Source: Haloarcula rubripromontorii
GTDB lineage: Archaea; Halobacteriota; Halobacteria; Halobacteriales; Haloarculaceae
Direction of reading: 5' to 3'
DNA: 64,000 bases
Assembly: GCF_001280425.1 (NCBI RefSeq)
Contig: NZ_LIUF01000003.1
Span: 434,001-498,000, forward strand
Part shown: piece after piece, positions 32,639 through 52,612 of the stretch
Layout: every line of letters starts with the position of its first letter
How positions within the stretch are numbered: the first letter of the stretch is position 1
Position numbers and translations under genes: made by a program
Notes under the pieces: model-generated
Seen by the model: only the letters and a program-made list of their open reading frames with translations
What the model was told of the DNA's origin: nothing
The model's database searches: none

Positions 32639-34366
32639 TTACTCCCGACGTGCCAGGAATCCGGCACCTAGCAATGCTAGCACCGCGACAAGTACGGTGA
32701 AGCCAGGGCCGCTCGAACTCGTGGTTTCGGTCGAACCCTCGGTCCCAGCGGTTGCCGTGTCGTCGGGTTGCTGGGCACCACCACCTGCGGTCGTGGTCGT
32801 TTCCGTCTGCTCATCATCATCTTCTGTTTCGGTGCTGTCGTCGGTGGTAGTTTGGTCCTCGGTATCGGTCGTCGTTTCGTCCTCAGTGCCCTCACTGTCG
32901 GAGTTGTCGTCTCCGCTATCGCTATCATCACTCCCGTCGTCACCACCGCCACTGTTGTCGCCGTCGTCGCCACCGCCACTGTTGTCGCCGTCGTCTCCAC
33001 CGCCACTGTTGTCGCCGTCGTCTCCACCGCCACTGTTGTTATCGCCGTCGTCGCCACCACCACTGTTATCGCCGTCGTCGCCACCACCACTGTTATCGCC
33101 GTCGTCGCCACCACCACTGTTATCGCCGTCGTCGCCACCGTCGCCATCGGTTTCGTTCGACTGCGACAGTGTGACCGTCCCGGTGGCGGAGTTGATTTCG
33201 TTGGAGTCCTCGCCAACGGCGATGTGAACGTATGTGTAAGTCCCGTTTGGCCAGGAGTCCAGTGTTTCGACGGCGACAGTGGTATCGGAGCTACCGGACA
33301 CCGTCGTCGCCGAGGCATGCAACACGTCGTCACCGGTCGACTCTGGCGATGCTTCGGAGAGAACGAATCCGAACAGACCGACCAGTCCCGCCGACGGCAT
33401 CGCCCCCGCTGCCGTCGAGTCCCCGCCGGAGAGGGTGGCGTCATCATCGGTCGACGAGACGCCGTTGACTCCATCAAAGGAGTTCTCGACCGTGACCTGC
33501 TCTTCCGAGAAATTCTCATCGATGTCACCGGTCACGCGGACGGTGCTCGTTCGCTGTTGGAGTTCATCTTCGTCGAACAACAACACGGCGTGCGTGACAG
33601 AGTCATCGTCAAGTCCGGTCTCGATATCGAGCGATACGTTGTCACCAGCGGTGACATCGTTGGCGGTCGCATTGACTGTGGCTGGGCTTTCCTGAACCAG
33701 CGTCTGTTCGACGCCGACAACGGTCACGTTTCCATCGGCCGAAACGTTGTTGTCCGAAACGGAGAGACCCTGTCCGTCATCGACGGTGACCAGAATGAAG
33801 CCGTAAGCACCGCCCGAGTCAGGTGTGTACGAGGTTTCGAGCACACCGTTGTCATCTATCGAGCCGACCCCCTCGGCATCGTCTAGCAGTTCGACAGAAT
33901 TGGCGTTGGAGTCGTTCGTAAAGATGTCAGCTAGATCGGTTCTAACGCTGCCCTCACTAAACCCGGCCGCAGTTGGGTCCTCGGAGAGGCGGACAGCGAG
34001 CAGTTGCGCCTCGTCGCCGGCAAGTCCCGTGGTTCCAGCCCCTGTAGTTGATTCGAACGTGAGATCCACTGATTCGCCTGCCTGGTGAATCGTGTACTCC
34101 TCCCTGTTGAGGGGAACGTCACCGGTCTGGGCGGACTCAATGTTGATGTACGTCTGTGGAGCTGCTATCGCCGTGGGGCCGGTGGAGGATGTCCGAAGCG
34201 GGAGCAGTGACCGCTCCCAGACATCCACGTTTTCGGTCACTGCCGTCGTTTGTCCGTCATCCACTGGTGTTGCCGCCGCCGACGTTACCGACAGGGGAGC
34301 GGCTAACACCAGCAGCACTGTAATCGCACAAATTACAGCGTGCTTCCCGTTTGGTGTTTTATACAT
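32639..34366 (-). CDS. PGF-CTERM-anchored surface glycoprotein with acidic repeat
   Basis: 575 residues from the ATG at 34366 (MYKTPNGKHAVICAITVLLV), which gives a proper signal peptide; an upstream start at 34426 only buries it. A 380-residue beta-rich ectodomain (NVDVWERSLLPLRTSS) is rich in Asn-X-Ser/Thr sites. It is followed by a Gly/Asp/Asn/Ser repeat, an Asp/Glu/Thr-rich linker and the tail GPGFTVLVAVLALLGAGFLA-RRE. That tail is a PGF-CTERM signal, recognised by archaeosortase A, which removes it and attaches lipid. It is closely paralogous to the next gene. A TATA-like AATTATACC lies about 30 nt upstream. Confidence 0.88.
   Translation of the reverse strand: MYKTPNGKHAVICAITVLLVLAAPLSVTSAAATPVDDGQTTAVTENVDVWERSLLPLRTSSTGPTAIAAPQTYINIESAQTGDVPLNREEYTIHQAGESVDLTFESTTGAGTTGLAGDEAQLLAVRLSEDPTAAGFSEGSVRTDLADIFTNDSNANSVELLDDAEGVGSIDDNGVLETSYTPDSGGAYGFILVTVDDGQGLSVSDNNVSADGNVTVVGVEQTLVQESPATVNATANDVTAGDNVSLDIETGLDDDSVTHAVLLFDEDELQQRTSTVRVTGDIDENFSEEQVTVENSFDGVNGVSSTDDDATLSGGDSTAAGAMPSAGLVGLFGFVLSEASPESTGDDVLHASATTVSGSSDTTVAVETLDSWPNGTYTYVHIAVGEDSNEINSATGTVTLSQSNETDGDGGDDGDNSGGGDDGDNSGGGDDGDNSGGGDDGDNNSGGGDDGDNSGGGDDGDNSGGGDDGDNSGGGDDGSDDSDSGDDNSDSEGTEDETTTDTEDQTTTDDSTETEDDDEQTETTTTAGGGAQQPDDTATAGTEGSTETTSSSGPGFTVLVAVLALLGAGFLARRE
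32935..33140 (-). repeat. 27-bp tandem coding repeat (GGGDDGDNS units)
   Basis: Seven units of a nine-residue motif, one with an extra Asn codon, plus a degenerate eighth. At DNA level the units fall into two blocks that differ by synonymous bases: those nearer 32940 share GCCACTGTTGTCG and those nearer 33100 share CACCACTGTTATCG. This suggests two rounds of unit duplication. The stretch probably forms a hydrated acidic stalk. Confidence 0.9.
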
Positions 34367-48749: not shown

Positions 48750-50620
48750 ACGCTATGTTTGTTCACCCTCGTTTCAAAAACGTCGCGGGTCTGACTTATC
48801 ACAGGACAATCGCTACAAATCGGCCCATTCTCGATAGGACAACCGTGGGATAATCCCCGGTAGAATGGACCAACTCGTCTCTGGTAGTCCTTAGCTTCCC
48901 ATCGCCGAGCACGACAGATTGGCAAGCGAACAGTAACAATCCAGAGCTGGAGCAGTCGGGGCTCTCCGTTGGAAACTGAAATCGATTTCACAAAACATAT
49001 TCTAATTTCTACTATTTCTAAGGTTAGTTCGAATCGCAAGACATCGACCAAGGTTAGAAATCCGACTATGTCCTAACTATAATAGAAAATATATATTTCG
49101 CAGTTCTCGGTGTGTCAAAACTGGCTTCGACAAAGGCTCTGTCATCCGATATCAGAAGTTTTGGTCGTTCAGCTCCGATATCTGCCGACTGGTCAGTCCA
49201 CCGGTTTAGCTAGGTTCGACAGCGGCCACGCACGTTCTTTCGGTGGGAGGCATCTGGGTTGGACACCCGGAAATCGACAAAGGACGGCGTTCGGTTGGTT
49301 TGTGGGTTTCAATCTCTCGCCTCTATCCTTGACACTATGTTTCCCGTCAGGTTACGAGACCACTCCTACAGTATCCTAAGATTTCGACTGCGTCGAGTAG
49401 TAGTCACTGCTGAGGAACAGCTTGCCCAGTAAGACATTACAGCGAAACACGTAGCAAATTCTCATAATCGGGTTCAAAGGCCGCAAGAAACGTTCTATAC
49501 TCTGTTCCGTTCAGGCTATGACGAATCCCATCGAAACACAGAATCCCGACATCAAAGCCGTAAGCACGGCTGAAATGCGGAATACAGAAACCAAGATCGT
49601 CCCTCAACCTGCCTGAATCGGCCGTCAAACTCCCCACCTGAGCTAGTCATAATCGGTTCCCGTCTGGCGATTAGCAGGAATAGGCGTAGTGGCGACTACC
49701 GCCCGTCGTCAGAAACACGAATCAGGAGGCAGCCGCCCGCTCCGTACAGATCGTAATCCCACCGGGTGACTACTGGCCGTCCTCACAACGGTAACTGCGT
49801 CCTAGTTCTTCCTCTCCCTCGTCGATGGAAGTGTTCTTGCGGCCGTCAGCGCCGATTATGAAAACCACCCCATCACCGAATGTTCAACTTAGATTCCAAA
49901 ACCGGCAGGAGAGCGCCGCTACTAGTAGTTAGGAAAGGCTACAGTGAGTGGCTGTTTGTCGCTCCAGTTCGGGACACCATGTGACAAACCTAGCTGCGGA
50001 GTAACGGACCGAATGCAGCCGATATTGGGATTAGGAACCATGTTCACTTACTCGCAAGGCAACGGTCCCTAGAGTGAAGTGATCGGATAGATCGCGGACA
50101 GTCGGGTATATCGGGATGGAATGTCTGCATCTGTTGTCTCAACCAGACCGGCGTCGCTGGTTTATCCCAAATCGATGTTGTGAACGAACCCAGGATGAAG
50201 CTCTCGGGAGGGCATCGTCACAGCCGTTGTGACGGGGGCAGCCAGCCTGGTCGCGTCGTTCGTGTTACGACAACTCACTTCATGTCTGTAAATGGGGGGT
50301 CGCTCTCGGGTGCAACAGCTACGGAAGACAGCGTCGGCGGCGGTAGGACGTGTGCCGTCGCGTCCACGCCGCGGTGGTGTCGGTTTGGGCCTTTCTTAGG
50401 TGGAGTCTGTCACAGGGTTATGTTCCATTGCCTGTCACAACAGGCGTGACGCCTCCTGTGGCGGTCTTCTCGGCCGTACTGTCCAGGAGGTCGAGCCCGG
50501 TGTAGCGTTTTTCCAAGAGTTTTTCATCGACTGCCATGTCGAGTTCAGGACAAGCCCCACTCTCAAAGCGCCGAAGACTCTTTGGTTAGTTAACAACTAT
50601 TAGCGTCTTGATAATGGAAT
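48750..50620. other. Long gene-poor, decayed region left of the origin
   Basis: Nearly 1.9 kb without a complete gene, unusual in this compact genome. Short stretches look like broken coding sequence. On the minus strand, near 49868-49750, a GDGVVFIIGADGRKNTSID-type reading is interrupted by stops. A 66-codon minus-strand frame at 49437-49637 (YGFDVGILCFDGIRHSLNGT) may be another fragment. 48990-49100 is very AT-rich. No intact IS or RNA gene was found. Confidence 0.5.
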
Positions 50621-50810
50621 AGACACACCCCGCAACGAGTGAAAACTTCGGAGGATGGATTCTCCAATCTCGTGAGACACACTTCGTACCGAGTGAAAAC
50701 TCATGAGTGTGAGTTTTCCAGTCCCATGGGACACACACTTCGTACCGAGTGAAAACTCATGAGTGTGAGTTTTCCAGTCCCATGGGACACACACCTCGTA
50801 CCGAGTGTAG
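50621..50810 (-). repeat. Tandem 56-bp repeats carrying ORB-like boxes
   Basis: The core CGTACCGAG recurs at 50685, 50741 and 50797 (exactly 56 bp apart). A diverged copy CGCAACGAG at 50631 is 54 bp before the first. Two full units (50675-50730, 50731-50786) are almost identical; the outer two are degenerate or truncated. Read on the minus strand each box is GTTTTCACTCGGTACG followed by AAGTGTGTC. Each full unit also contains a CATGAGTGTGAGTTTTCC spacer. These resemble origin recognition boxes. Confidence 0.85.
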
Positions 50811-50983
50811 CTGTTGATCTAGCATATTCTGTTTCACTCGTTACTCGGTGTGTCTCTTCCCCTCATTTGGTATATAATCTGATTTGATAGCGTTTGAAAG
50901 TCTTGCTAAGGCAGTTTTGAGAGTTTTCACTCGGCCCGAGGTTAGGAACAATTAAATGTTGTCCATTTGTTGTCTCGATAGCA
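50621..50983. other. Putative replication origin (ORB array and AT-rich unwinding element)
   Basis: Four ORB-like boxes on the minus strand (50621-50810) face oppositely oriented boxes at 50831-50856 (GTTTCACTCGTTACTCGG then TGTGTCTC) and 50923-50940 (GTTTTCACTCGGCCCGAG). Between them, 50857-50920 is AT-rich (GGTATATAATCTGATTTGAT), a suitable duplex-unwinding element. The orc1/cdc6 gene starts at 50984. Inverted ORBs around an AT-rich core beside cdc6 is the standard haloarchaeal origin plan. Whether it fires is not shown. Confidence 0.78.
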
Positions 50984-52180
50984 ATGGATGATTCCGAGGA
51001 CGGATCTTCGATTTTTGCGGGTGGTGACATCTTCGAACAGCGGGAGTTACTCCGAGTCGGCCACGTGCCGGACATCGACCGAATCGTGGGCCGCGACGAG
51101 GAAATTTCCGCAGTTGGGCGTGCGCTCGGTCCTGGAACGAGGGGGAGTCCGCCTGAGACGACCATTATCTATGGGAAGACCGGGACTGGGAAATCACTCG
51201 TTACACGGTGTGTGTCTCGACAGGCACAGAAAGAAGCCGATTCCCACGACACGGACTTCCGATTTTCATATGTGGATTGTTCGGACTACCAGTCAGATGC
51301 CAAGGCGAGCCGAGAAATGGCAAGGCGGCTCTCCGACACACTCGATGCTGAGAAGAATATTCCGCGCGTCGGTATCGGTGCTGCGGACTACCGGGATATA
51401 ACATGGGAACTCCTCGATGAACACGACGTTGACGTGTTTGTCGCAATTTTAGATGAAGTGGATAAGCTCGACGACGACGACCTCCTTCGGAGTTTGACTC
51501 GGGCAAAAGAAAGCGGGAAGGCAGATGCACATATCGGTGCCATCTGTGTGAGTAACAAAATCGAGTATCGAAATCGGCTGAACGAGCGACTTGACTCCAG
51601 TCTTCAGGACAACGAGCTCGTCTTCGATCCGTATGATGCGAATCAAATCCGGGCAATCCTCGAAAACCGTACCGATGCCTTTGTAGATGGAGTCTTACAG
51701 GAGGGCGTCATTCCAAAAGTCGCTGCACTCGCTGCCCAAGAACACGGCGACGCCCGCAAGGCCGTCGACACACTATACGAGGCGGGGCGAATCGCAGAGA
51801 AGGAAGAAGCGAATATCGTTACGGAAGATCACGTCGATGACGCCGTTCAGCGGGCGGAGATCAATCGATTCAAGCAACTCGTCAGCGGGACCACACCCCA
51901 CGTCAAACACATCCTTCGAACGCTCGCTTTACTTACCGCCGATAACCCCGGCCAGCAGTCGTTCTCGACGCACGAAATCTACGAGGCCTACACACAACTC
52001 GTGGCAGCAGAAGAAGGCACACCGCTCTCGGAAGATCGTGTGTATCGGCTCCTCAAAGAGCAGTCGTTTTTGGGTGTCACTGAATCCGAGCATACTGGGG
52101 GAGGCCATAGCGAGGGGAGTTTTTTGGAGCATCGGTTGGTCCGAGACCCTGAACTGGTCATTGAGGCTCTTGAGAAGTAG
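50984..52180 (+). CDS. orc1/cdc6: Orc1/Cdc6 family replication initiator
   Basis: 398 residues. The AAA+ domain has Walker A GKTGTGKS at residues 64-71, Walker B FVAILDEVDKLDDDDLL, sensor 1 (GAICVSNKIEYRNRL, an Orc-type SN) and sensor 2 (EHGDARKAVDTLYEAG). The C-terminal 110 residues form the winged helix that contacts ORB DNA (HVKHILRTLALLTADNPGQQ, and TPLSEDRVYRLLKEQSFLGV). The protein binds ORBs and loads MCM. It is flanked by ORB-like boxes on both sides (50621-50940 and 52183), which supports an origin-linked and perhaps self-regulated initiator. Its codon use is less GC-rich than the core genome. Confidence 0.93.
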   Translation: MDDSEDGSSIFAGGDIFEQRELLRVGHVPDIDRIVGRDEEISAVGRALGPGTRGSPPETTIIYGKTGTGKSLVTRCVSRQAQKEADSHDTDFRFSYVDCSDYQSDAKASREMARRLSDTLDAEKNIPRVGIGAADYRDITWELLDEHDVDVFVAILDEVDKLDDDDLLRSLTRAKESGKADAHIGAICVSNKIEYRNRLNERLDSSLQDNELVFDPYDANQIRAILENRTDAFVDGVLQEGVIPKVAALAAQEHGDARKAVDTLYEAGRIAEKEEANIVTEDHVDDAVQRAEINRFKQLVSGTTPHVKHILRTLALLTADNPGQQSFSTHEIYEAYTQLVAAEEGTPLSEDRVYRLLKEQSFLGVTESEHTGGGHSEGSFLEHRLVRDPELVIEALEK

Positions 52181-52182
52181 CG

Positions 52183-52209
52183 GTTTCACTCGGTGTGGGG
52201 TGTGTCTGT
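52183..52209 (+). promoter_or_regulatory. ORB-like box downstream of orc1/cdc6
   Basis: GTTTCACTCGGTGTGGGGTG followed by TGTCTG begins 3 nt after the cdc6 stop. It matches the upstream boxes at GTTT-CACTCGG and GTGTGTCT. A box on the far side of the gene extends the origin across cdc6. Confidence 0.65.
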
Positions 52210-52279: not shown

Positions 52280-52413
52280 GAAAGCCCCCGCGTTCTCGGC
52301 TCCCGCGACTCGCTACGCTCCAGTGGGTGCTTGCATCGTCGGGGTTCGCCGAGAACGCGGCCCTTTCAGTCCCGCCCAAAGGTAGTTGGCCAGCTGGTAT
52401 GGGCCGGACTGAA
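52280..52413. other. Two long nested hairpins (structured RNA or mobile-element end)
   Basis: A perfect 13-bp inverted repeat (CCGCGTTCTCGGC at 52288-52300, complement at 52348-52360) extends to about 20 bp with two mismatches into GAAAG / CTTTC flanks. Immediately after, TTCAGTCC (52365-52372) pairs with GGACTGAA (52406-52413), with an inner GCCCA/TGGGC stem. No frame covers it. It could be an RNA, the palindromic end of an IS200/IS605-TnpB-type element, or a replication-linked structure. Confidence 0.5.
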
Positions 52414-52424
52414 GGTATGTCCTC

Positions 52425-52612
52425 TTAGTCGTCGAAGAAGCCGAGAAACTCTAGGCAATCAGCATGGGTTAGGGACCCACGTTTCGGTTCAAGGCGCTCA
52501 CGCTCAAGGTCGTCACCAACGATGTCTAGCGTGTCGTCGTGGCTTCCGTCCACAAAAGAGGGTGCGGATTTCGTTGATACGTGTTTCCAGACCGCGGTTG
52601 CTGTATATCTCT
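52425..52612 (-). pseudogene. C-terminal fragment of a lost gene
   Basis: The minus strand reads TAVWKHVSTKSAPSFVDGSH, then DDTLDIVGDDLERERLEPK and ADCLEFLGFFDD before a TAA. The reading is protein-like and acidic but has no start codon; it begins at the stop of the epimerase gene. It is most likely the tail of a gene cut by the rearrangement that brought in the glycan locus. Family unknown. Confidence 0.45.

Follow-up and report, generated by a model that had tools for sequence, protein, structure and literature searches.

Haloarchaeal origins of the ORB type are described, in the openly available text of one survey (PMC3528665), as combining an orc1/cdc6 gene, ORB-like repeats on both sides of it, an AT-rich element and boxes particular to the clade of the initiator. 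In the available parts of four papers (PMC3528665, PMC4010727, PMC4595724, PMC4441112), the ORBs are placed in intergenic DNA beside cdc6, and two of these (PMC3528665 and PMC4595724) state intergenic regions as the search space. The PMC3528665 survey, which according to its available text collected the intergenic regions flanking orc1/cdc6 genes, was thus not designed with boxes inside a gene in view. In Haloarcula hispanica, oriC2D, an ORB-rich region located downstream of cdc6E, restrains oriC2, probably through titration (PMC3936714, accessible portion), and the same portion is our source for the E. coli precedent, namely autoregulation of dnaA together with titration at datA. The ori of phage lambda lies within gene O (PMC4488673, accessible portion). 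In our searches of open-access literature, we found no report of an ORB inside a cdc6 gene.

Judged from its sequence, the locus described here would be an origin of the known kind; what appears to be new, as far as we could find, is a box conserved as DNA within the Walker A codons of the initiator gene. Like the haloarchaeal ORB origins of PMC3528665, as far as its text is available, the locus has an orc1/cdc6 gene, ORB-like repeats on both sides, an AT-rich element and clade-particular boxes; unlike them, it has a conserved box within the gene. With oriC2-cdc6E/oriC2D of H. hispanica (PMC3936714, in part) it shares boxes beyond the initiator gene and a proposed negative control by initiator titration, but here there is one downstream box and an extra box within the coding sequence. 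The E. coli dnaA/datA arrangement (via PMC3936714, in part) resembles it in having a site at the initiator promoter (here a putative half-box) and titration sites off the core origin; the initiator and the boxes are different, however, and here the gene itself carries a putative site. As in lambda (PMC4488673, in part), a repeat for initiator binding, in our case a predicted site conserved at the DNA level, lies inside the initiator's own coding sequence, whereas lambda has its iterons and AT-rich part within O and our locus has a single box in an ATPase motif. The AT-rich interval, at 50855–50922, is upstream of the gene. The lambda O and Orc1/Cdc6 initiator proteins are unrelated.

We think it fairly probable that this predicted haloarchaeal origin includes its own orc1/cdc6 gene, by way of a box (box G) that overlies the Walker A codons, has kept its DNA sequence in 25 of the 36 relatives sharing its P-loop type, and is likely an initiator site touching, and maybe restraining, the gene. 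The window, that is, the whole 64-kb stretch of DNA analysed, sits on a 548-kb contig (C3) of a host genome of 3,969,714 bases (3.97 Mb) in 18 contigs. The features of the locus are as follows, with box coordinates in a 25-bp register and the two matrices as defined below:

50622–50646, minus strand: ORB-like box A (matrix scan, 37.8 bits; genome core-pattern search)
50676–50700, minus strand: ORB-like box B, within the 56-bp unit 50674–50729 (matrix scan and core pattern)
50732–50756, minus strand: ORB-like box C, within the 56-bp unit 50730–50785 (matrix scan and core pattern)
50788–50812, minus strand: ORB-like box D (matrix scan and core pattern)
50830–50854, plus strand: ORB-like box E (window matrix, family matrix and core pattern)
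50855–50922, no strand: AT-rich E–F interval (63% AT); candidate unwinding element
50923–50947, plus strand: half-box F, left half only, 93 bp after E, at a spacing conserved across the family
50950–50957, plus strand: TATA-like word AATTAAAT, immediately following F; probable promoter of cdc6
50984–52180, plus strand: orc1/cdc6 initiator gene, 398 aa (Cdc6_lid, Cdc6_C, TIGR02928)
51190–51214, plus strand: ORB-like box G, inside cdc6 at Walker A/alpha-1 (window and family matrices, core pattern, codon tests)
52182–52206, plus strand: ORB-like box H, just past the cdc6 stop (window matrix, family matrix and core pattern)

The product of the gene at 50984–52180 matches TIGR02928 with 358.9 bits (cut-off 181.3; E 2.5e-107), and its Cdc6_lid and Cdc6_C matches are both above cut-off. 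It is thus an AAA+ protein with a Cdc6 lid and a C-terminal winged helix, as expected of archaeal Orc1/Cdc6, and the gene was rightly called orc1/cdc6 in a preliminary description of this DNA. The stop codon is at 52178–52180. The host genome has 13 match rows to the protein (E ≤ 0.001), two of which are pieces of one frame. The gene is unlikely to be cdc6E, since H. japonica, stated in the accessible part of PMC4441112 to carry cdc6E, shows no relative above 42% identity over the full length. To the left of the origin, 49052–50862 has no listed ORF of at least 100 aa.

For comparison, 116 loci were gathered through genome and plasmid searches and grouped by P-loop peptide. The RC group (SLVxRC; SLV, with Cys at +6) comprises 36 non-identical members, among which near-copies (L018/L021, L049/L050/L114, L052/L115) were kept and count more than once, inflating the counts somewhat. 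The sister RH group (SLxxxH; SL, with His at +6) comprises 53 rows, of which only seven were taken into the tree, and nine other rows fall in neither group. Three N-terminally short relatives were left out of the 36, namely L083 and L084, with no P-loop in the frames read, and L058; L059, which duplicates L042, was also removed. In L058, the frame is broken just past the P-loop, yet a 30.0-bit box is kept there. The RC loci have a common layout: minus boxes on the left at variable distances, then E, half-box F, G in the gene, and plus boxes after the stop. A search of phages gave no match, nor did six peptide patterns in viral_contigs. The closest relative, L111 (86% amino-acid identity over residues 1–380), is assigned to another family (f4), and at its C-terminus it passes into a different sequence; this suggests horizontal transfer as well as rearrangement.

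Two matrices were used, one (the window matrix) built from six boxes of the window, whose own scores are 33.3–40.3 bits, and the other (the family matrix) from the 36 RC loci, using 199 boxes in their intergenic DNA and no in-gene boxes. When the 64-kb window was mononucleotide-shuffled five times, the window matrix scored 13.6 bits at best. In addition, the core pattern CACTCGKTNBNNVGTGTGT has seven matches in the 3,969,714-base genome, all seven at this locus and one of them box G; as a control, the reversed core pattern has none in the whole genome. As regards the G-string that typically closes the boxes of haloarchaeal origins, window boxes end in GRGGTGTGTS, with GGGG present only in A and H, and the family consensus is G-rich at positions 12–17 without a long G run.

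The flanking intergenic DNA contains several ORB-like repeats in inverted arrangement, with an AT-rich element among them, as expected of a haloarchaeal origin. Four minus-strand boxes in tandem (A–D, spaced 54, 56 and 56 bp) and one box right after the cdc6 stop (H, on the plus strand) had been pointed out in the preliminary description, and both stand. Its two plus-strand boxes across the AT-rich stretch are likewise present as E and F, but the second is only a half-box. Its picture of inverted ORBs around an unwinding element is correct insofar as the boxes to the left of the AT stretch are mostly minus (66 of 75 in 30 family loci) and plus boxes predominate beyond the gene's downstream end (42 of 47), and has to be amended in that E and F point in the same direction. 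Downstream boxes number one at the window locus and 0–5 across the 36 relatives. The E–F interval has a mean AT content of 66%, against 46% in the 500 bp leftward, and is the richer of the two in 29 of 30 loci.

Half-box F is not matched by the core pattern, and its 13.2 bits by the window matrix fall below the best shuffle, so it is not significant alone; its support is its position in relatives. The E–F spacing is 92–95 bp in 30 of the 36 family loci and exactly 93 in 19. Among the 31 loci with F at 8 bits or more, 29 have a TATA-like word at most 12 nt after F, against a background of 3% of upstream 12-nt windows.

The most unusual feature of the locus is the predicted box within the gene, which the preliminary description missed. 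Box G begins at the last base of the Gly69 codon and then spans codons Lys70–Val77, which from the Walker A lysine read AAA TCA CTC GTT ACA CGG TGT GTG (K S L V T R C V). It scores 19.7 bits by the window matrix, to whose source boxes it does not belong, and 25.5 bits by the family matrix. The window's copy is among the weaker intact ones, its TTTT lead being replaced by AAAT because the Lys codon imposes it.

Across the RC group, 25 of 36 members carry the strict form AAR TCA CTC GTT RCN MGG TGT, and in the tree they spread over the GTDB-style families f1, f4 and f17. One of the members with the box is the cultured, non-pathogenic Haloarcula amylolytica JCM 13557 (L018). A match of at least 8 bits at G occurs in 27 of the 36 genes, with codon and strand identical in every case, and it is the sole in-frame match of that strength within any of the 36. 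When codons were redrawn with the protein and codon usage kept, in a leave-one-out design, the observed score was reached with f ≤ 0.01 in 26 of 36 RC genes and with f ≤ 0.001 in 23; at the same place and with the same matrix, f ≤ 0.01 was reached by one of 53 RH genes, with a best score of 7.9 bits. Furthermore, when the 302 codon columns are ranked by synonymous conservation in the 26 members that have Thr or Ala at +4, the first four places go to box codons, namely Cys76, Leu72, Ser71 and Val73. In these 26 genes, Cys76 is TGT and Leu72 is CTC without exception, Ser71 is TCA and Val73 is GTT in 25 each, and Arg75 is always AGG or CGG (AGG in 16). Separately, raised synonymous conservation near cdc6 codons 184–193 appears among the best-scoring windows of RC genes with the box, RC genes without it and RH genes alike.

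A search for a G-like pattern in 392 genomes of the order gave 24 occurrences in 19 genomes, of which 16 are inside these genes, seven beside them and one elsewhere (G191); because the pattern was derived from the in-gene form, in-gene matches are favoured. A sister subgroup of 24 rows has a different type of box, with 135 intergenic copies, and no box of that type was found inside the gene body. A candidate near Walker B in that subgroup, where flank-repeated 16-mers had matched with 3–4 mismatches, was dropped; with a proper matrix, no match of at least 6 bits was found for it in the gene body, and the same matrix gave one 11-bit match at −197 in L097, at the gene start.

The strict box is absent in 11 of the 36 RC members, so box G is dispensable. 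Its loss is coupled to one amino-acid change: the strict box is present in 25 of the 26 members with Thr or Ala at +4, against none of the ten with Ser. In the latter, the box codons vary (e.g. Val73 is GTC in four, GTT in three and GTG in two). Weak matches remain in L020 (12.4 bits) and L053 (15.8 bits), both without the strict box. The box-less label requires seven changes on the tree, or at least five when well-supported branches are considered. We considered compensation for a lost G by more downstream boxes, but it was not significant (1.9 in members without G vs 1.4 in members with it, p = 0.21); upstream boxes were not significantly more numerous either (p = 0.96). In L023, the intergenic boxes end in GGGGGG and the internal box still has GTGTGT, a mismatch of types that weakens the case for strict co-evolution. 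Another point against our reading is that the F–G distance ranges from 249 to 271 bp across the family, leaving no fixed helical phase.

How might such a box act? We read the right arm of the origin as running through its own initiator gene, and consider initiator binding at the predicted site G likely. In the general archaeal model, the initiator would bind A–E and H around the AT-rich E–F interval and lead to its opening. Binding at half-box F, which abuts the cdc6 TATA box, would block the promoter, and box G, about 200 bp into the gene, would hold further initiator as a roadblock or titration site. Excess initiator would then be held on its own gene and its own synthesis lowered, so that feedback by autorepression or by titration is plausible. 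This scheme is drawn from the archaeal origin model, oriC2D of H. hispanica (PMC3936714) and lambda (PMC4488673), the two papers as far as available. What the sequence itself shows is the presence, position and orientation of G, its codon conservation, its match to intergenic boxes, the coupling of its loss to one amino-acid change, and the fixed E–F spacing.

Having proposed a regulatory role, we would note that G might instead be one more origin box, extending the right arm for initiation (helicase loading) with no part in gene regulation. G is indeed oriented like E, F and most downstream boxes, and lambda ori demonstrates, in the accessible text of PMC4488673, that in-gene initiator sites can be core parts of an origin. 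However, some 270 bp separate G from the AT-rich interval; the F–G distance varies by 22 bp; and where G is lost, the rest of the layout is unchanged. We regard a purely initiating box as unlikely.

Considerably less probable still is that the codons are kept because of how the P-loop region is translated or how its mRNA folds, with the likeness to a box incidental. P-loop regions are strongly conserved in protein, which speaks for such an explanation, but the conserved codons include ones that are uncommon in these genes (TCA is 13% of Ser and AGG 2% of Arg codons), and they are not retained in the Ser-at-+4 members or the sister group, whose peptides are almost the same. Moreover, the mRNA segment at box G forms no RNA hairpin, folding no better than shuffles (z 0.34), and the bases fit the intergenic boxes at 20.8–33.8 bits in the 25 box-bearing relatives (family matrix, intergenic boxes only). 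That the box arose once and is merely inherited, with no current selection, fits its confinement to one P-loop clade and the clustering of the label on the tree, but is hardly credible when other synonymous sites of the same 26 genes are near random (mean normalised synonymous excess 0.09, vs 0.88–1.0 in box codons) and, as the Ser-at-+4 members show, drift sets in at these codons when the box is lost.

Returning to G as an initiator site acting on its own gene, a further-reaching version can be advanced tentatively, and we lean slightly against it. Here, the origin box in the Walker A codons would be held by selection on DNA, and the need for GG TGT GT would also have fixed the Cys after the P-loop, which is absent from the sister genes (mostly His); the DNA site would thus shape the enzyme core, and the initiator would close a feedback loop inside its own gene. 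This would be a case of a DNA site and an ATPase motif constraining each other. If the regulatory reading is true, the origin physically includes the gene for its own initiator, and a single molecule would link the supply of initiator to the occupancy of the origin. Box G could be removed without a protein change, via synonymous codons already used by relatives, which would make archaeal feedback control directly testable. The locus would then also suggest that intergenic-only surveys can miss origin elements.

The left arm has a history of its own. The two 56-bp units at 50674–50729 and 50730–50785 are 98% identical, with a 100% identical spacer, and the near-identity reported in the preliminary description, spacer included, is thus borne out. 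When each unit was compared with the DNA that follows it, such spacer identity was seen in only one of 28 close box pairs in the 36 loci, and none of the remaining pairs is more than 70% like what comes next; the closest relative, L111, has two minus boxes instead of four. A recent local duplication of the 56-bp unit is therefore likely and a fair inference. The array had also been called unusually regular; its 54/56/56 spacing is real, but adjacent minus boxes are 50–60 bp apart in 16 of 44 cases in the family, so the spacing itself is not special. The duplicated spacer (50700–50790) contains inverted repeats (GAAAACTCA/TGAGTTTTC) and a palindrome (GTCCCATGGGAC), and the segment folds strongly (z −4.86), in part owing to its being a repeat.

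Elsewhere in the window, a 27-bp tandem repeat of 7.6 copies is found at 32934–33140. A terminator-like site at 52465–52479 is the single one from a sigma-70-type scan, which is unsuited to archaea. Just past box H, 52280–52368 folds into a strong hairpin whose outer arm pairs perfectly over 13 bp (z −4.66); this region, of which one diverged copy (69% over 17–131 of 159 bases) lies at G000:C2:438312-438449, is possibly a small mobile or structured element.
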